Assembly: GCA_949840955.1 (NCBI GenBank)
Contig: CATKXV010000004.1
Span: forward strand, 127,804 to 175,184
Length of the DNA: 47,381 nt
Direction: 5' to 3'
Source: an uncultured Anaeroplasmataceae bacterium
Lineage (GTDB): Bacteria > Bacillota_I > Bacilli_A > Acholeplasmatales > Anaeroplasmataceae
Within the stretch, counting starts at the first letter, position 1. Each line of letters begins with the position of its first letter. Shown here piece by piece: positions 16,014-38,284 of the stretch. The notes under the pieces were generated by a model. It saw only the letters and a list, made by a program, of their open reading frames with translations, did not search any database and was not told where the DNA came from. The position numbers were made by a program, and so were the translations under genes.

Positions 16014-17555
16014 TTAATCCTCAATCTCAGCATTCTTAAAATATGCGACTACAGATAAGGCTGCAGATTCAGCCAATTGCTTTGTAGTATAGGACTCTCC
16101 TACGGTTGCAAGTCTTCCACTTGCTGTATATAAATTATAATGGAAATTATTATTTTTATCTTTCAATATTTTGAATGATCCAGTTTCAACATTCTTTTTA
16201 AAGCTTTCAATTGAGCTTAATGCTCCATTTTTAGAGGTATAGCCCTCAGCTTGACAAAGGATATGGCCATTGGAAGCCTTTAAATCCCAACTGAATTCTC
16301 CATCAAATTTCTCAACAACATATTTCCCACCAAGCTTTTCTTCTACCTTAGAGGTATCTAGAAAAGCCTCAACGATATTATCAGAGGTTTTAGGGGCATC
16401 AATTTCTACAACGGTAGCCTTTAATGCGAAGTTTTTAAATGATTCAGAGGAACGAACAGCACTCTTTTCAGTAGTGTAGCTAGAACTCAAAGCTAAAACT
16501 CTATAGTTTTTAGAAGTTAATTTAAATTTATATAGACCCTTTTTATCTTTAAAAATACGTATTTCACCAATTTCAATATTACGCTTAACAGCTTCAATTG
16601 ATTTTAAGGCACTATCCTTTGTGGTATATACCTCACTTACAACTAAAATCTCACCATTGGAAGCTTTCAATCTATATTGAAATCCATCACCAGAAGGATA
16701 TACTTCGAATTTACCCGTATAGGTTCTTCCATTAGCTGCTGGCTGAGCTGCTTTACTTGCAGCTTTTGTTGTTGTTGCTTTTTTTGCTGGCTCACTCTTG
16801 GCAACTGTAGTTTTCTTTGCTGGTTCTTTTTTTGTTGTAGCCTTTTTAACTGGTTCTTCTTTAGGCTCTGCTTTTTTTGCTGGTGCTTTCTTTACAGTTT
16901 CCACCTTCTTTGTTGTCTCCTTAGGCGCTTCGGCTTTTTTAGTAGGAGTTTTCTTAGAAGTAGTTTTTTTCGCAGGAGTTTTTTCTTCCTTCTTTTCTTC
17001 AGCTTGGACTGGTTCCTCGACTTTTTCCTCTACAACCGTTTCCTTCACAGGCTCTGCATCTGCTTTTTTTGCTGAAGCATTTTTAGTTGTTTTTTTCTTG
17101 GCAGGAGCTTTCTTTTCCTTTACTTCTTCTTGAACTGGTTCTTCTTTCTTTTCTTCTACAACAGGTTCTGCAACAGGCTCTGGTTCAGCCTCTACCTTTG
17201 GTTCTTCTTGAACTGGCTCTTCTTTCTTTTCTTCCACAACAGGTTCTGCAACAGGCTCTGGTTCAGCCTCTACCTTTGGCTCTTCTTGGACTGGCTCTTC
17301 TACTTTTTCCTCTACAACAGCTTCTTTAACAGGCTCTGCATCTGCCTTTGATTCATCTTCTTTTGATTCTTCAGCTGAAGCCTGTTTGCTTTGTGCTTCT
17401 AAAGCCTCATATTTCTTATCTCTTTGCTTTTGTACTATTTTGGATGCAATTAAAACGATAACAACTAGAGCTAAAGCAATTAAAATAGCAGTGAAAAACA
17501 CAATGTCAACTTGATTTGTAAAAAATCCACTACTTGCTAATAAATTTAAAAACAT
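16014..17555 (-). CDS. Membrane-anchored DUF1508 (YegP/UPF0339) repeat protein with Lys/Glu/Pro/Ala-rich stalk
   Basis: The ATG at 17555 is chosen over one six codons upstream because GAGGTG lies 6 nt before it. The 513-aa protein has one membrane helix at about 18-38, then a low-complexity charged region of about 240 residues: acidic VEEKVEEPVQEE-type repeats followed by PAKK/TTKK-type basic repeats. Four DUF1508 units end it, recognisable by YTTKDSALKSIEAVKRN-like motifs about 50 residues apart. DUF1508 proteins are small beta-strand proteins of unknown role. The anchor plus long flexible stalk suggests the repeats sit away from the membrane. The stalk contains DNA tandem repeats. Confidence 0.85.
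   Translation of the reverse strand: MFLNLLASSGFFTNQVDIVFFTAILIALALVVIVLIASKIVQKQRDKKYEALEAQSKQASAEESKEDESKADAEPVKEAVVEEKVEEPVQEEPKVEAEPEPVAEPVVEEKKEEPVQEEPKVEAEPEPVAEPVVEEKKEEPVQEEVKEKKAPAKKKTTKNASAKKADAEPVKETVVEEKVEEPVQAEEKKEEKTPAKKTTSKKTPTKKAEAPKETTKKVETVKKAPAKKAEPKEEPVKKATTKKEPAKKTTVAKSEPAKKATTTKAASKAAQPAANGRTYTGKFEVYPSGDGFQYRLKASNGEILVVSEVYTTKDSALKSIEAVKRNIEIGEIRIFKDKKGLYKFKLTSKNYRVLALSSSYTTEKSAVRSSESFKNFALKATVVEIDAPKTSDNIVEAFLDTSKVEEKLGGKYVVEKFDGEFSWDLKASNGHILCQAEGYTSKNGALSSIESFKKNVETGSFKILKDKNNNFHYNLYTASGRLATVGESYTTKQLAESAALSVVAYFKNAEIED
17122..17300. repeat. 78-bp in-frame tandem repeat inside the DUF1508 protein gene
   Basis: Two near-identical 78-bp units plus a partial third encode 26-residue repeats of the type PVVEEKKEEPVQEE followed by PKVEAEPEPVAE. 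The copies differ by only a few bases, so the repeat is recent and likely variable in number among strains. Confidence 0.85.
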
Positions 17556-18135
17556 TCTAGACACCTCATTCATTTATATTCTATATTCTATTATAAACTA
17601 AAGCAAAACTTTTTTCTACAAAAAATAGAAAAAATTATAACATTTTTCTAATGTTTTTTAAAAAAGAATCGTTCTATAAAACCATATATGGAAAAATTTT
17701 CATTTTTGCCTTAAAAATAGTTGCAAGCAAACTGAAATTTCATTTTTGCTTTAAACTTTCACCAGTTTAACATTTAAATGTTATAATGAATTTTCTAGTA
17801 AAATAAAAGAAAAAAATACAAAGATCAAAAATCAAAACAAATCTTCAACTCCTATATTCATTAAGCATAAACCATAACTGAATTTGCATTACTAACTATT
17901 TTACTTTTAGCTTCTACTATAATTGATTATATCGAAAGAAAATACTTTATTTAAAATTCAAAAAAACATTTTTATATGTCATTTTTGTCCTTTACCAAAC
18001 AAAATCTAAAATAGAATAATTAAACAAATATGCTTATTTTTTTATCCTAATCAATTAAGCACAGAAATTTCAATTTAAGAATCAAAGAAAGTTTAACATA
18101 TAATGAAATATAAATAAATCAAATGTATTTAAGCA
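17556..18135. other. AT-rich intergenic region
   Basis: About 580 bases without a supportable gene. A minus-strand TATAAT at 17590-17595 probably belongs to the DUF1508 gene promoter. A motif of the form TTTCATTTTTGCYTTAAA occurs at 17698-17715 and 17738-17755, with a diverged third copy near 17979-17996. Otherwise no structure was seen. Confidence 0.5.
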
Positions 18136-21038: not shown

Positions 21039-21114
<76 letters not shown>

Positions 21115-21118
21115 AAGA

Positions 21119-21194
21119 TGGTGGAGGTTGACGGGCTCGAACCGCCGACCCTCTGCTTGTAAGGCAGATGCTCTCCCAACTGAGCTAAACCTCC
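21119..21194 (-). tRNA. tRNA-Val (anticodon TAC)
   Basis: A complete 76-nt tRNA: acceptor GGAGGTT / AACCTCC, anticodon loop CTTACAA, T-arm CGGTTCGAGCCCG and encoded CCA. It lies 4 bases before tRNA-Thr in the same unit. Confidence 0.97.
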
Positions 21195-21215
21195 AATTAT
21201 TTACTTGCATTTCTT

Positions 21216-21243
21216 ATTATAACCTAAAACCACAAGAAATCAA
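21216..21243 (-). promoter_or_regulatory. Predicted promoter of the tRNA-Val/tRNA-Thr unit
   Basis: On the minus strand TTGATT (plus 21238-21243), a 16-bp spacer and TATAAT (plus 21216-21221) lie about 22 bp upstream of tRNA-Val. Confidence 0.65.
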
Positions 21244-21287
21244 GTAAAATTTTTTGTTTTAGATAAAAAGTATTTATTTTTTCGCTT

Positions 21288-21770
21288 TTAGGAGATTTGT
21301 TTTAAACGTTTGGGCTCTTTATAATATGATAAAACTACAATTCGATTTTTTTTAGAATCGTAGGCTATATTCATTTTTTTCCCAGTAAAGTCATAAGTAA
21401 AGTAAAAGTCTATATCAAGTGGATGGTAGGAAAACATATGTGTTGTTCGTATGAATTTTTCAGTCCCATCCTCTAATTTAAAAAGAACTTGATAGGAAAA
21501 TGCTCTAAATAATATGTGATGGTCTGGTTGACCAAATCTAACAACATATACCTTCATCTTCTTTATATTCTTTTTTATATAAATGTATCTATATAATGGA
21601 TAGATTGTAACCAAAACATCAAAAGCAAATATGTGTGCAAGCCCAAGGCCTACAGCTCTCCATCCCAACAAAAAGAGGGGAATAAAAAATATCACACTTA
21701 TTATTAGTGCCCCTACATTCCATATGAGCATTACTCTCTTAAAAAAATTCAATTCAAGATTTCCTTGCAT
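21288..21770 (-). CDS. Small membrane protein, tandem paralogue A
   Basis: The ATG at 21770 is chosen because AGGTGATG lies 5 nt before it. The 160-aa protein has two hydrophobic segments (about 13-35 and 40-60), then a basic stretch (KKNIKKMK) and a soluble C-terminal domain of about 90 residues rich in beta-strand patterns (VYVVRFGQ, YQVLFKLEDGTEK, RIVVLSYY). The family is not recognised. It is about 85% identical to the gene next to it and ends the galactose operon without a visible terminator. It carries a longer C-terminus than paralogue B (KEPKRLKQIS). Confidence 0.75.
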   Translation of the reverse strand: MQGNLELNFFKRVMLIWNVGALIISVIFFIPLFLLGWRAVGLGLAHIFAFDVLVTIYPLYRYIYIKKNIKKMKVYVVRFGQPDHHILFRAFSYQVLFKLEDGTEKFIRTTHMFSYHPLDIDFYFTYDFTGKKMNIAYDSKKNRIVVLSYYKEPKRLKQIS

Positions 21771-22412
21771 TTTCATCACCTATATATATATATTATAAAA
21801 GGAAAAACATATTTTGTAAAATTATGAAATTAAATCTTCTATAAAAGTTTTTTGTTACAATAATGTTAATTTAAACGCTAAGGCTCTAAATTATAAGATA
21901 AAACTACAATTCGATTTTTTTTAGAATCGTAGGCTATATTCATTTTTCTCCCATCAAAGTCCTGAGTAAAGTAACAGTCTATAGAATATTTATGGTAGGA
22001 AAACATATGTGTTGTTCGTATGGATTTTTCAGTACCATCCTCTAATTTAAAAAGAACCTCATAGGAAAATGCTCTAAATAATATGTGATGTTCTGCTTGA
22101 CCAAATCTAACAACATATACCTTCATCTTCTTTATATTCTTTTTTATATAAATGTATCTATATAATGGATAGATCATAACTAAAACATCAAAAGCACATA
22201 TGTGTGCAAGCACAATGCCTACAGCTCCCCATCCCAACAAAAGAGAGGGGATAAAATATATCACACTTATAATTAGTACATCTACATTCCATATGATCAT
22301 TAATCTCTTAAAAAATTTCAATTCAAGATTTTCTTTCATTATCATCACCCAAATATATTATACAATGAAAAACATATTTTGTAAAATTATGAATTTAAAT
22401 CTTCTATAAAGT
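21290..22412. repeat. Direct tandem duplication of a ~570-bp segment including the galT tail
   Basis: Unit A (about 21290-21845) and unit B (about 21870-22412) each hold the membrane-protein gene plus its upstream spacer. Each also holds the last codons of galT, reading FIEDL before the stop. In unit B this is the true galT end; in unit A it is an orphan fragment around 21820-21845. Confidence 0.85.
21878..22339 (-). CDS. Small membrane protein, tandem paralogue B
   Basis: The ATG at 22339 follows a GGGTGATG site with the same layout as its paralogue. The 153-aa protein has two hydrophobic segments near the N-terminus and a C-terminal domain with motifs VYVVRFGQAEHH and FKLEDGTEKSIRTTHMFSYH. 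No family is recognised. It directly follows galT and is probably the ancestral copy, because the spacer next to it continues into an intact galT. A role in galactose use is suggested only by its position. Confidence 0.75.
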   Translation of the reverse strand: MKENLELKFFKRLMIIWNVDVLIISVIYFIPSLLLGWGAVGIVLAHICAFDVLVMIYPLYRYIYIKKNIKKMKVYVVRFGQAEHHILFRAFSYEVLFKLEDGTEKSIRTTHMFSYHKYSIDCYFTQDFDGRKMNIAYDSKKNRIVVLSYNLEP

Positions 22413-23889
22413 GGTCCATTTCTATCGTCTTATTGCCAAATTTAAATACACTACAATCCTCTAATACGTTTTGAAAAATCTTTCCAACCTCACAATTTAA
22501 AATACTCTGTAGGTTATCTTCATTAAATTGATATCTAGATATAAGGCTGAGTGCCCATGCCTTATGCTTTAATAAAGGTTCTTTATTTAAAGTACTTATA
22601 TCCTCTTTTTTTAGAAGTATCCATTTTAAAAGATCCAATTCCTCCTTTAATCGTTTTGGAAGGACAGCTAATCCCATAACCTCTATTAATCCTATATTCT
22701 CTTTTTTGATATGATGGAGGTCTTGTCTTGGATGAAATATACCATCAGGATAGATTTCATTTACTCGATTATTTCTTAGGGTTAAATAAAGAATATATTC
22801 CTCATTAATTTTTCTTGCGATTGGAGTGATCGTGTTATGCCGTATTCCATTGGATGATGAAATAATTTCAATGCTTGGACGATTATAAGTCTCCCATGTC
22901 TTTAAGATTGCACTAGATAGCTCTAAAATTTCTTTTCTATCTCTGCCTTTTAAACAAAGTGTATCTAAGGGCCAATGGATGTATTCAATACGTGTATTTC
23001 CATATTTTTTCAGCTTATATTCCTTTAGAAGGGTTGCTTTAAACATTGGGAACTCATATCTTCCTCCTTGAAAATGATCATGAGATAAAATAGAACCACC
23101 AACAATGGGTAAATCCGCATTAGATCCAATAAAATAATGCTCAAATTGATCGACAAAATCCAGCAATTTTATAATTGTGTCCTTTTCAATTTTCATGGGA
23201 ACATGATTTTTATTAAAGAGTATAGCATGCTCATTATAATATGAATAAGGAGAATATTGAAAATAATATTTTTCATGATTTAATTCTATAGGAATTACTC
23301 TAAGATTTTGTCTTGCATCCTGCTTTATATTTCCAGCAAAGCCCAAATTTTCATAGCATAATGCACAGGAGGGATAATTTAAGCTAGGTGTATTTTTTAG
23401 CTGGGCAATCTGTTTGGGGTCCTTTTCAGGCTTACTTAAATTGATGGTAATATCCAAAATGCCATATGCACAGGAATATGTATAGCATATATTTTTAGCT
23501 ATCCTATCCATATGAATATAATTTGATGATATAGCTAAATCATAAAAATAATTCGTCGCTTGAATTTTGTCTACAGCATACATTTGCATAAAGTTTTGAA
23601 CTACAACAGATGGCTTGGGCATCATGATATCCATAAGCCTTGTTGAAAATAAATCGTAGGTGGTTATCGTATTATCACAAAGGATATGCTTATCATATGC
23701 ATAATCACAAATATGCTCTAATAAAGTATAGATATCTTGTTGCTCTACGGATTCAAAATAAAAGGTACTTTCCTTTAAAATATCAATATAAAGATTTGCA
23801 CAGTAGATGGAATCTAGTTCAGTTATTAAGCCTTTTCTTAAGCCATATTCCAAAAGCTGATTGATAAGATAATTCCCTGATTTCCTCAT
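22387..23889 (-). CDS. galT: UDP-glucose--hexose-1-phosphate uridylyltransferase, Firmicutes type
   Basis: This 500-aa GalT belongs to the long Gram-positive class (about 490-500 aa) rather than the 350-aa enterobacterial class. The HDHFQGG motif supplies the catalytic His region, and SCALCYENLGFAGN is typical of this class. It transfers UMP from UDP-glucose to galactose-1-phosphate in the Leloir pathway. Its start overlaps the galK stop by one base (TAATG). No galE is visible in the window, so UDP-galactose epimerase must be encoded elsewhere. Confidence 0.95.
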   Translation of the reverse strand: MRKSGNYLINQLLEYGLRKGLITELDSIYCANLYIDILKESTFYFESVEQQDIYTLLEHICDYAYDKHILCDNTITTYDLFSTRLMDIMMPKPSVVVQNFMQMYAVDKIQATNYFYDLAISSNYIHMDRIAKNICYTYSCAYGILDITINLSKPEKDPKQIAQLKNTPSLNYPSCALCYENLGFAGNIKQDARQNLRVIPIELNHEKYYFQYSPYSYYNEHAILFNKNHVPMKIEKDTIIKLLDFVDQFEHYFIGSNADLPIVGGSILSHDHFQGGRYEFPMFKATLLKEYKLKKYGNTRIEYIHWPLDTLCLKGRDRKEILELSSAILKTWETYNRPSIEIISSSNGIRHNTITPIARKINEEYILYLTLRNNRVNEIYPDGIFHPRQDLHHIKKENIGLIEVMGLAVLPKRLKEELDLLKWILLKKEDISTLNKEPLLKHKAWALSLISRYQFNEDNLQSILNCEVGKIFQNVLEDCSVFKFGNKTIEMDHFIEDLNS

Positions 23890-33904: not shown

Positions 33905-36900
33905 TTATTCTTCTTTTTTCCAAATAAGAGCTTCATATTCTGCCATAAAGGAAGCCTCATCAGGATACTCTGTATAAACAGGATCAATAAATGTTAATCC
34001 CGTCTCCCAGGTTTGAATATAGGTATAACCTACAGTTCTTTGATTCTCTGAATAGGAGAAAACAACTTGTCCATTGATTAAAACTGTTTTTTGCCAACCA
34101 GAGCATAAAATCTGTAAATGAGTTTCTTCTCCATTTTTAACTCCAAAATTCTTTTCAACAACAACCTCGTCATCTGTTCCCCATTTACATTTTGAAATTA
34201 CAATAGAGCTATCCTTGATTTCCATTTTATATCCATCATTTGTATCCCAAGCACGGAAACGAATGGTAAAGCTATCCCATGTAGTATTATTGTAGTCTGC
34301 AATAATTCTTGTATCCAATGCCACATGATTTTTTCCATCCTGTGATCCAATACGTACTATGGTAGAATTATTAGGCTCCTTGGTATTAAAAATTACCTTA
34401 TTTCCTTCAGTTGTTATATTATTTAAAGCACCCTCTGTTTCTTCAAACATTAGGTTTTTAAAGGTTTCAGCTCTTAAAGCACCTTCTTGTTCGATGGTTA
34501 AAATAGAAGAAAGCTTTTGCTTTGTTTGTTCTAATATAGCAGGAATTTCATCAACAGTAGTAACAGCATCGATTTCTAACTTACCCTCTTCTACTATTTT
34601 TGCCATTTCAGCCTTCATCTTATCACTATATTGAGTAGAATCCAGTGATGCTACAAAATCATCTAATTCTTTCTTTGCTGCGGTAGTATCCTCGTCAAAT
34701 TGCTCACGCTCAAGAGTTTTAACTGCATTTAGCCTTTTGATCGCATCCTCTACTGCGGCGTGAACCTTAGAAACCGCATTACAAGCATCAATTGTTTGTT
34801 GGGCTTCAGATATGATAGTTGCTATAACCTGTTGGTTTGTCTCACTATACAGCGATAAATCAGATATGTGATTCTCCAATGTTACCTTAGAAGCTGCTTT
34901 AGTAAGATCTAATTCCGTTTGATTGATACAATCCATTTCAATTTCAGTTTTGTAAGCTGCTTCAAATTCTAAATTCGTCGCATACTCTGTATAAATAGGA
35001 TTAATGAATGTAACTCCTGTATTTCGTGTTTCAAAATATGTACGGCCAATTACGTTTTTATCAGATTCTATTCTAAATATGCATTCCCCATCGAGTAAAA
35101 CGGATTTTGTCCAGCCATAGCATAAAATTTGTAAATGTACTTCTTTTCCATTTTCTATTCCATAAGCATTACTCATATAAAGCTCTTCTACATTTGAATC
35201 ACAATCATAAAACACAATGGAGTTTTCTGTGATAATCATTTTATATCCAAAGCCCTTATCCCAAGCAGAAAAGTGAATGATAAATTGGGAAGAAGCTGCA
35301 TAATCTATGATTAGATTTGTATCGAAGGAGGCACCCTTTCTACTATCATTACGAGTTCCGATATAGCTAAAGGTAGAATCTAAAGCCTTCGTATCAAAAA
35401 CAACCTTGTTTCCATCTAAAGCTAAATGCTCTAAAACCACATCTGCCTCTTCTAGACTATTCTTAAAATCCATTGCATTTTTCACTTGCTCTTCTACAAT
35501 GGTTAAAACTGCATCAACTGCCTCTTTAACCTGGGCTACAATAGGATCAATTTCATCAACACTTGTAACAGCATCGATTTCTAGCTTGCCATCCTCAATA
35601 AGCTTTAAAAGCTTAGCCCAGTTTGCTTCACTATACTCTGCTGAGCTGAAGGCTTGAAGATAGTCATCTAATTCTTTCTTTGCTGCGGTAGTATCCTCTT
35701 CAAATTGCTCACGCTCAAGAGTTTTAACTGCATTTAATCTTCGGATTGCATCCTCTACTGCGGCATGGACCTTAGAAACTGTATCACAAGCATCAATTGT
35801 CTTTTTGCTTTCAGAAAGGATATTCGCTATAACCTGCTGATTTTCTTCACTATACAGTGTTAAATCAAAAATATGATGATCTAATGTTGTCTTGGAATTC
35901 TCCTTTAAAAGCTCAAATTCTGATAAATTCACACATGGTGCCCAAATCAAGTCTTCATAGTCTTCCTTCATTTCTGCACTGCTTTGTGGTTCAAAATAAG
36001 TTGGATTGATTAAGGTTACACCTGTCTTCCAGGTTTCAATAAATATACGTCCAACCGTTTTATCTCCTTCCTCAATGCTAAAGATACATTCTCCATCAAG
36101 AAGGACAGTTTTCTGCCATTCATGGCATAAGATTTGTAAATGGACTTCCTTTCCATTTTCTATTCCATAGGCATTTCTCATTAGAAGCGTATCAATACCA
36201 CCTGCACGAGAATAAAATAGAATTTCATTTTCTGTTATGGTCATCTTATAGTTAATCGCTGTATCCCATGCACGGAAATTGAGGGTTAGTATGCTTCCTT
36301 CTCCTCTATAATCTACTCTAAGCTTGGTATCCAATACAGACCATTTATTCTCAGCCTGATTTCCAAATCGAACAATTGTAGAATCTACATCCTTTGTATT
36401 CCATATAACCTGATTTCCATCTGTAGTAATATAGTTTTCTATAGCTCCTGAAGTTTCATTAACTAAAGCATTCTTGAAGGCCTTTGCTCTTTCAACTTCC
36501 TCTTCTGTAATGGTTAAAACCTCATCTAAGGCTGTTTTAACAGAAGCCAATACCTCTTCCATTTCTTCTAAACTATTACATGCATCGATTTCTAGCTTGC
36601 CATCCCGAATGATTTTTGCAATGAGCTCCTGATTTGCTTTAGAATAAAGAGTTACATCGGTAATATATTCTTCGATTTCAGTTTTCTTAGCTATAGCCTC
36701 TGTATCAAAGGCTTCTCTTTCTAGTGTCTTAATCGCAGCTAATACCTTTTTGATGTCCTTTACTTCTAGATTTACATTTTCTATCGTAGTACAAGCATCA
36801 ATATTTTCTTTTCCTAAAGCCAAGGCTTCATCTAGCTTGACTCCATTCGCTTGGCTATATAAGCTCTTATCAAAGGTTTTGAAATAATCATCAAGCTCCT

Positions 36901-38284
36901 GTTTCGCATTCGTCTTTGCAGCTGCAAGCTTTTCTGCTTCAGTTTGATTGATGCATTCCTTCCACAATAGCTCATCATAATCTGCTTTGAGGGTTGCACT
37001 ATCCTTAGGCTCTGCAAAATAAGGATCACATAGGATAAATCCTGTTTGCCAAGTTTCAATATAGGTATAGCCTACACTGCGTTCTTCCTCCTCAATGGTA
37101 AATATACATTCCCCATTAATTAATACCGTTTTCTTCCATTCATGAGCTATAATTTGAAGATGATATTCTTGGTTATCCTTCATACCAAATTCATTATGAA
37201 CCAATAATGTTTCTAAAGTTCCATTTAAATCATTACTCCAAACAGCAGAATATATATCGATATGATCATCATATATTTTCATCAAATAGCCATGAGATAA
37301 ATCCCAAGCGCGGAATCGAATAGAAAAGCTAGAGCCTGCCACACCTAAATAATTTGGAGTTATTTTAGCATCTAATACTTGGTATGGATTGGTATCCTGA
37401 GTACCTAGACGCAACCTTACTGTACCTTGATTTTTCGAATTTAATGTGAGCTTATTGTTCTCTAGTGTCACGAAATCTAAGGCCCCTGCGGTATCCGCAA
37501 ATAATCCATTTTTAAAGTCTAGGGCATTTTGTATCTTTTCTTCTTCTATGGTTAATACCTTATCTAAATCCGATTTTGTATCTGTCAATATAGCAGTAAT
37601 CACAGCTTCCTCTGTGGCAGCATCAATGTTTTCCTTCGCATCCTGAATCATTCTTTCAATTTCTGCTAAGCCCTTTTTGCTATAAAGTGTCTTATCCTGA
37701 ATATACCCCTCCAATTCTACCTTGGCAGCAGCTTTCATTGTAGCTAACGCTTCTGTAGCAAGGGTAGGTATTCCATCGATTTCCTTTTTAGCAGAGGCTA
37801 CAAGTGGAGTGACATCTGAAGCCTTTGTACATTTTTCAATTGCTGCTTTAGCATCTTGAATCACTTTAGTGATTTTGGCTTGATTGGTATTGCTATAATC
37901 AGATAGCTTCACATAGGAATCCAATTCATTTCTTGCATCTGCAATGGCCTTAGCTAAGTCTTCTGCTTCTATAGTAGGAAGCTTATCTATCGCAGATTTT
38001 GCAGCAGAAACGGCAGCCTTGATATCAGCCTCTGTCTTTGCCTCTTCTATTTTTGTTTTAGCAGTAGCAATCAGCTTTTTTATTTCTGCTTGATTGGTAG
38101 AACTGTATACAGCCATATTTTTTACATAGCCATCCACTTCCTTAACAGCAGCTTCCCTTTGCGTTTTTAATTCATCGGTTTCAACTACTGGTGGCTTTTC
38201 AACTACTGGTGGTTCATCCTTTTTACAACCAACTAAAGATAAACCTGTAATGATAAACAATAACAAAATTAATCTTTTTTTCAT
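33905..38284 (-). CDS. 1459-aa surface lipoprotein with FIVAR-like helical repeats and four unrecognised beta-sandwich-like modules
   Basis: Signal peptide with lipobox LVGC and lipidation Cys20. Residues 35-250 hold three helical repeats of about 70 residues (FIVAR-like, with YSxxNQAxIxKxIxxAK). Then come four homologous modules of about 185 residues at about 254-442, 600-781, 937-1118 and 1275-1456, separated by pairs of the same helical repeats, giving a period of about 340 residues. Each module carries FRAWD--GYKM, LQILCxxWxKTVLL and DGECIF or equivalents. The pattern suggests a lectin-like (concanavalin-type) glycan-binding domain, but I do not recognise the family. It probably acts as an elongated surface tether for polysaccharide next to the GH43-like lipoprotein. 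Confidence 0.9.
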   Translation of the reverse strand: MKKRLILLLFIITGLSLVGCKKDEPPVVEKPPVVETDELKTQREAAVKEVDGYVKNMAVYSSTNQAEIKKLIATAKTKIEEAKTEADIKAAVSAAKSAIDKLPTIEAEDLAKAIADARNELDSYVKLSDYSNTNQAKITKVIQDAKAAIEKCTKASDVTPLVASAKKEIDGIPTLATEALATMKAAAKVELEGYIQDKTLYSKKGLAEIERMIQDAKENIDAATEEAVITAILTDTKSDLDKVLTIEEEKIQNALDFKNGLFADTAGALDFVTLENNKLTLNSKNQGTVRLRLGTQDTNPYQVLDAKITPNYLGVAGSSFSIRFRAWDLSHGYLMKIYDDHIDIYSAVWSNDLNGTLETLLVHNEFGMKDNQEYHLQIIAHEWKKTVLINGECIFTIEEEERSVGYTYIETWQTGFILCDPYFAEPKDSATLKADYDELLWKECINQTEAEKLAAAKTNAKQELDDYFKTFDKSLYSQANGVKLDEALALGKENIDACTTIENVNLEVKDIKKVLAAIKTLEREAFDTEAIAKKTEIEEYITDVTLYSKANQELIAKIIRDGKLEIDACNSLEEMEEVLASVKTALDEVLTITEEEVERAKAFKNALVNETSGAIENYITTDGNQVIWNTKDVDSTIVRFGNQAENKWSVLDTKLRVDYRGEGSILTLNFRAWDTAINYKMTITENEILFYSRAGGIDTLLMRNAYGIENGKEVHLQILCHEWQKTVLLDGECIFSIEEGDKTVGRIFIETWKTGVTLINPTYFEPQSSAEMKEDYEDLIWAPCVNLSEFELLKENSKTTLDHHIFDLTLYSEENQQVIANILSESKKTIDACDTVSKVHAAVEDAIRRLNAVKTLEREQFEEDTTAAKKELDDYLQAFSSAEYSEANWAKLLKLIEDGKLEIDAVTSVDEIDPIVAQVKEAVDAVLTIVEEQVKNAMDFKNSLEEADVVLEHLALDGNKVVFDTKALDSTFSYIGTRNDSRKGASFDTNLIIDYAASSQFIIHFSAWDKGFGYKMIITENSIVFYDCDSNVEELYMSNAYGIENGKEVHLQILCYGWTKSVLLDGECIFRIESDKNVIGRTYFETRNTGVTFINPIYTEYATNLEFEAAYKTEIEMDCINQTELDLTKAASKVTLENHISDLSLYSETNQQVIATIISEAQQTIDACNAVSKVHAAVEDAIKRLNAVKTLEREQFDEDTTAAKKELDDFVASLDSTQYSDKMKAEMAKIVEEGKLEIDAVTTVDEIPAILEQTKQKLSSILTIEQEGALRAETFKNLMFEETEGALNNITTEGNKVIFNTKEPNNSTIVRIGSQDGKNHVALDTRIIADYNNTTWDSFTIRFRAWDTNDGYKMEIKDSSIVISKCKWGTDDEVVVEKNFGVKNGEETHLQILCSGWQKTVLINGQVVFSYSENQRTVGYTYIQTWETGLTFIDPVYTEYPDEASFMAEYEALIWKKEE
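34400..38050. repeat. About 1-kb internal repeats within the 1459-aa lipoprotein gene
   Basis: The module plus two-helical-repeat unit recurs every roughly 1020 bp. Some linkers are nearly identical in DNA, for example the segments encoding KVHAAVEDAI and LEREQF at about 34680-34760 and 35690-35770. This indicates recent internal duplication or gene conversion. Confidence 0.7.

Follow-up and report, generated by a model that had tools for sequence, protein, structure and literature searches.

A small membrane-protein gene occurs as two head-to-tail copies in the interval from galT to the promoter of a tRNA-Val gene, and this pair very probably arose by a recent, lineage-specific tandem duplication in place, of an ordinary kind, that doubled a promoter-plus-gene cassette; nothing points to a role in galactose metabolism. 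The copied segment, of about 565 nt, starts with the final eight codons of galT and takes in a likely promoter, a ribosome-binding site and the membrane-protein gene. The pair is located in a window (the whole stretch of DNA that was analysed) of 47,381 nucleotides, taken from a 2.1-Mb genome in 34 contigs in which this DNA occupies a single place. It offers a clear, datable case of a gene doubled with its promoter, where a scrap of the neighbouring gene marks the break.

The repeat and the duplicated cassette

The window was compared with itself by blastn. The strongest off-diagonal match joins the unit proximal to galT (21870..22410, minus strand) to the distal unit (21301..21845, minus strand), with an identity of 90.3% over 546 columns (E value of 0.0). 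The units form a direct repeat with an offset of 569 nt from start to start and of 565 nt in the spacer. The homology starts at the last 24 nt of galT and stops at 21870 and 21301. The gene galT (22387..23889, minus strand; 500 aa; Pfam GalP_UDP_transf, 5e-29, and GalP_UDP_tr_C, 9.6e-16) is the source of the duplicated tail: its last 8 codons (22387..22410, minus strand; FIEDLNS-stop) constitute the upstream end of the proximal unit, and an orphan tail of 24 nt with one difference precedes the distal copy (21822..21845, minus strand). A sequence-only reading of this DNA had described a tandem duplication including the end of galT, with a unit of about 570 bp and the same spacer before both copies, and had called for a self-comparison of the region. 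That comparison recovers the repeat and agrees on each of these points, the unit being of about 565-569 nt and the two spacers (58 nt) being 95% identical, as alike as the genes. The orphan fragment, given there as FIEDL plus stop, does match the end of galT but reads FIEDLIS-stop, so this description was nearly right.

A filler of 24 nt, common to neither end of the repeat in the self-blastn and in the comparison of the tails, separates the two units (21846..21869, minus strand). The 24-base stretch 21854-21877, which includes most of the filler, occurs only once in the genome when up to 3 mismatches are allowed. The 9-mer AACAAAAAA is common to the filler and to the 3' flank of the distal copy, so the unit was perhaps a little longer at first and was later shortened by a deletion; such sharing is equalled by 174 of 5000 shuffles and by 55 of 5000 random segments of the window. 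Three RNA folds at the junctions are no better than shuffles (z of 0.37, -1.05 and 0.22), and the search for terminators there gave a single terminator-like site, inside a gene (mean of 0.7 in shuffles).

Both copies of the membrane-protein gene are open frames in the same orientation on the minus strand, delimited from the frame, the start and the hydrophobic N-terminal segments. The proximal gene (21878..22339) likely begins at the ATG at 22339 and has 153 codons with TAG as stop, and the distal gene (21288..21770) likely begins at the ATG at 21770 and has 160 codons with TAA as stop. The proximal frame is the shorter because its TAG falls 7 codons before the distal stop. In both units, a promoter match directly follows the stop of galT or of the orphan tail and is itself followed by GGTGAT and then by the ATG. 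The likely promoter of the proximal copy, TTTACA-17-TATAAT (22357..22385, minus strand), agrees with the consensus at 11 of 12 positions, a score attained by 39 of 3000 dinucleotide shuffles of 22338-22410. The likely promoter of the distal copy (21792..21820, minus strand; same hexamers and spacing, 11/12) is a copy of the proximal one and thus brings no independent evidence. Neither this shared promoter match nor the earlier stop of the proximal frame figures in the sequence-only reading. Throughout the window, sites as good as 11/12 number 3 on the plus strand and 4 on the minus strand, against an average of 1.83 per strand in six whole-window shuffles; with a looser threshold, the 7 promoter-like sites do not exceed the number in shuffles (mean of 10.0, sd of 3.1). 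The duplicated item is likely a promoter-plus-gene cassette, each copy being a self-contained transcription unit with a predicted promoter. The orphan galT tail can be read as passenger DNA that came along upstream of the distal promoter.

Two other ORFs of the window contain repeats. The ORF at 33905-38284 (1459 aa) has internal repeats of about 1 kb, with 76% identity between 34659-35183 and 35664-36188 and a further repeat between 35459-35594 and 36470-36605. The ORF at 16014-17573 (519 aa) contains tandem repeats of 39 and 78 nt rich in Glu, Pro and Val.

Age and origin of the duplication

On the minus strand, the genes succeed one another in the order beta-galactosidase-like ORF (a label that we presume and that does not come from a domain search), aldose epimerase, galactokinase, galT, proximal membrane gene, distal membrane gene, tRNA-Val (tac; 21119..21194) and tRNA-Thr (tgt; 21039..21114), both tRNAs being detected with ARAGORN. 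In the nearest relative of this genome that possesses galT, referred to as G005, that gene is separated by a gap of about 200 nt from the same pair of tRNA genes, tRNA-Val first and tRNA-Thr second. The 74 nt ahead of tRNA-Val in the window (21195..21268, minus strand) are common with this gap (81.6% over 76 columns) and include a likely tRNA-Val promoter, TTGATT-16-TATAAT (21243-21216, minus strand; 10/12), which in G005 has a likely counterpart with the same hexamers and spacing. The junction with galT is thus kept by the proximal copy and the flank shared with G005 by the distal copy. A tandem duplication divides the former 5' and 3' junctions between its two copies. Since the old upstream side is here on the proximal copy and the old downstream side on the distal copy, neither is "the original"; the earlier designation of the galT-proximal copy as such is not supported, the distal copy being the one that adjoins the G005-shared flank.

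The copies were compared over 153 codons. They differ at 45 of 459 coding positions (16, 16 and 13 by codon position) and by 28 amino acids. The values of dN and dS are both 0.105 with NG86, 0.098 and 0.065 with LWL85, and 0.101 and 0.128 with YN00; the bootstrapped dN/dS ratio has a median of 1.05 (95% interval of 0.49-2.34). Random substitution would yield 33.0 amino-acid changes (sd 2.6) where 28 are seen, 28 or fewer occurring in 4.0% of 2000 simulations, and in 8.3% of 2000 simulations no stop codon arose. These figures indicate that, after the duplication, both copies drifted at about the neutral rate with their frames kept open, under perhaps slight constraint. The dN/dS test suggested in the sequence-only reading therefore gives a ratio of about 1, with a weak sign of constraint; the selection for divergence inferred there does not appear, dN being equal to dS.

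In a tree of 26 proteins the two copies pair with each other as closest neighbours (100/100). Between this genome and G005, dS reaches 1.55 for galT and 1.74 for galK (NG86), so that the duplication, with a dS of 0.105, would be much younger than the split of the species unless the copies stayed similar through gene conversion. Their differences are in fact unevenly distributed (longest identical run of 79 nt, P 0.009; variance test, P 0.0012); gene conversion may be the cause, and it would make the duplication look younger than its true age. The pair could then be older, perhaps older than the split from G005, both copies having been lost in that lineage; past loss in G005 may also be read from weak matches between its gap and the gene (best same-strand E of 0.035 with lenient scoring). 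However, these are at the level of chance, being only as strong as AT-rich chance matches on the other strand, and the spacers, which need no conservation throughout, are as similar as the genes. We consider such an older duplication quite unlikely.

An assembly artefact, in which two strain variants of one locus were joined head to tail, also has to be weighed, given that the genome is in 34 contigs and probably comes from a metagenome assembly. Against this, the copies differ by ten percent over their aligned coding positions, which makes an artefact unlikely. Moreover, the join passes from the gene end to the 24-nt filler and then to the galT tail, an arrangement that two mixed strains of identical gene order would not produce, and the flanks are ordinary on both sides. 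Taken together, this explanation is extremely improbable.

For a recent duplication in place, the likeliest route would be illegitimate recombination or replication slippage, because the unit lacks long flanking repeats and its junction contains 24 nt of filler. Small tandem duplications arising by these processes are known in bacteria. The window pair resembles them by its head-to-tail copies, by the duplicated end of the upstream gene and by the novel junction between copies. It differs from them in its size (only about 565 nt, with one gene), in the 24 junction nucleotides that match neither end and in the divergence of 10% between the copies.

The protein family and its tRNA neighbours

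The product is predicted to be a small protein in which an N-terminal hydrophobic hairpin precedes about 90 soluble residues. The hydrophobic segments of the window copies are all within the first 57 residues, and two or more such segments are found in 23 of the 26 collected members of the family. Neither copy matches a Pfam family at E <= 1. For 11 relatives, the matches to Pfam are scattered and weak (best 0.0013, Orai-1, in 2 members), as are those to NCBIfam (best 0.0058; one model appears weakly in 5 members, best 0.069). No significant match to a curated model was thus obtained for the copies in Pfam or for the 11 relatives in Pfam and NCBIfam. Eleven members of the family match no phage or defence protein in PHROGs and PADLOC-DB (0 families at E <= 0.01). 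The best of 6 weak sequence matches in the PDB is ZorA (E of 0.0082, profile positions 38-110), and these were taken as chance matches of hydrophobic segments. The AlphaFold models are poor (mean pLDDT of 59.5 with one sequence and 50.0 with two). The protein may resemble small bacterial membrane proteins whose soluble part is rich in beta strands, such as those of the DUF3592 type, although no search returned these as a match. Like these proteins, the window copies are small and have hydrophobic segments and a soluble remainder, here mostly strands in the low-confidence model; unlike them, they have no Pfam match at E <= 1 and both their hydrophobic segments are N-terminal.

Single-protein queries detected two weak relatives, in the genomes G008 and G041. 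Profile A1 had matches at E <= 0.01 in 17 of the 160 genomes searched in the order, and profile A2 at E <= 0.001 in 26 of the 395 searched in the class; among these 26, six are doubtful (E of 9e-5 to 9e-4), and 5 of the other 20 had supplied rows of the profile. A pattern scan of genome contigs for named relatives gave 195 matches, with no relative among them. Judged by these comparisons, the window pair belongs to a sparse and fast-changing family of the Bacilli that has no name. The tRNA-Pro-linked relatives in G004, G006 and G007, three genomes of the same genus, are 48-63% identical, against 96-97% for their pyruvate kinases. The window copies are 23-26% identical to the members of G006 and G008; the pyruvate kinase of this genome is about 91% identical to those of G004, G006 and G007. 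The genes that neighbour the family members in other genomes are mixed.

In G004, G006, G007 and G008 (loci L003, L012, L013 and L014), the end of the family gene is followed, 13-20 nt further on, by a tRNA-Pro(cgg) gene in the same orientation, so that co-transcription of the two is probable. This genome (L162) and G005 (L161) have no family gene before tRNA-Pro(cgg). Among the 20 loci examined for a tRNA, only the tRNA-Pro loci gave one; the other 16 come from genomes other than these four or from a second match in G004. Accordingly, the G003 member and the examined members from other genera show no tRNA in the stretch examined, apart from that same G004 locus. As the window pair is also just upstream of a tRNA gene, tRNA-Val, the family might live next to tRNA genes in this genus, with a function tied to tRNA supply or with tRNA loci exploited as safe sites, and be doubled in tandem now and then. 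We regard this as rather unlikely.

The absence of the gene before tRNA-Pro(cgg) in L162 and L161 makes attractive a move of the tRNA-Pro-linked gene of the genus to the tRNA-Val site. Such a move is not supported by the tree, which joins the four tRNA-Pro members (96/100) without the window pair; a long branch (2.12) leads to the pair, and the node parting the two groups has a support of only 93/85.

G414 and G420, two genomes of another genus, contain a tandem pair from this family that is older (L124:1011-1950 and L125:1011-1950), with overlapping frames that are 37-38% identical. Together with the window pair, it indicates that tandem doubling occurred at least twice in the family.

The galactose genes and the place before tRNA-Val

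The gene galT is present in 2 of the 11 genomes of the genus, namely that of the window and G005. Protein and profile searches detected no relative of the membrane protein in G005, and no copy is found at the galT/tRNA-Val place. In 80 galT loci of named genomes (G005 included, several loci being cut by contig ends), profile A1 has no match at E <= 10 and profile A2 has one at E 2.7. The conservation beside gal genes in other genomes that would characterise a component of a gal operon is therefore not observed in these 80 loci.

According to the sequence-only reading, selection, whether for dosage or for divergence, retained the duplication of a protein of galactose metabolism. In favour of this, the pair adjoins galT, galK, galM-like and beta-galactosidase-like genes on the same strand, and both frames are open. 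But dN equals dS, the gene is absent from G005 despite the same gal genes and tRNA pair as well as from the 80 galT loci, and the relatives elsewhere adjoin unrelated genes. As each copy has its own likely promoter, membership of a gal operon is not required. We find a galactose role retained by selection very improbable; the inference is not supported, and the case calls for caution in deducing function from position, since the gene lies beside galT and yet its relatives give a galactose role no support.

The place before tRNA-Val (21195-23889 in the window; L139, L140 and L141) varies within the genus. Here it is occupied by galT together with the membrane genes, in G005 by galT only, and in G007, G004 and G006 by other ORFs, of a different gene (125, 125 and 173 aa, respectively).
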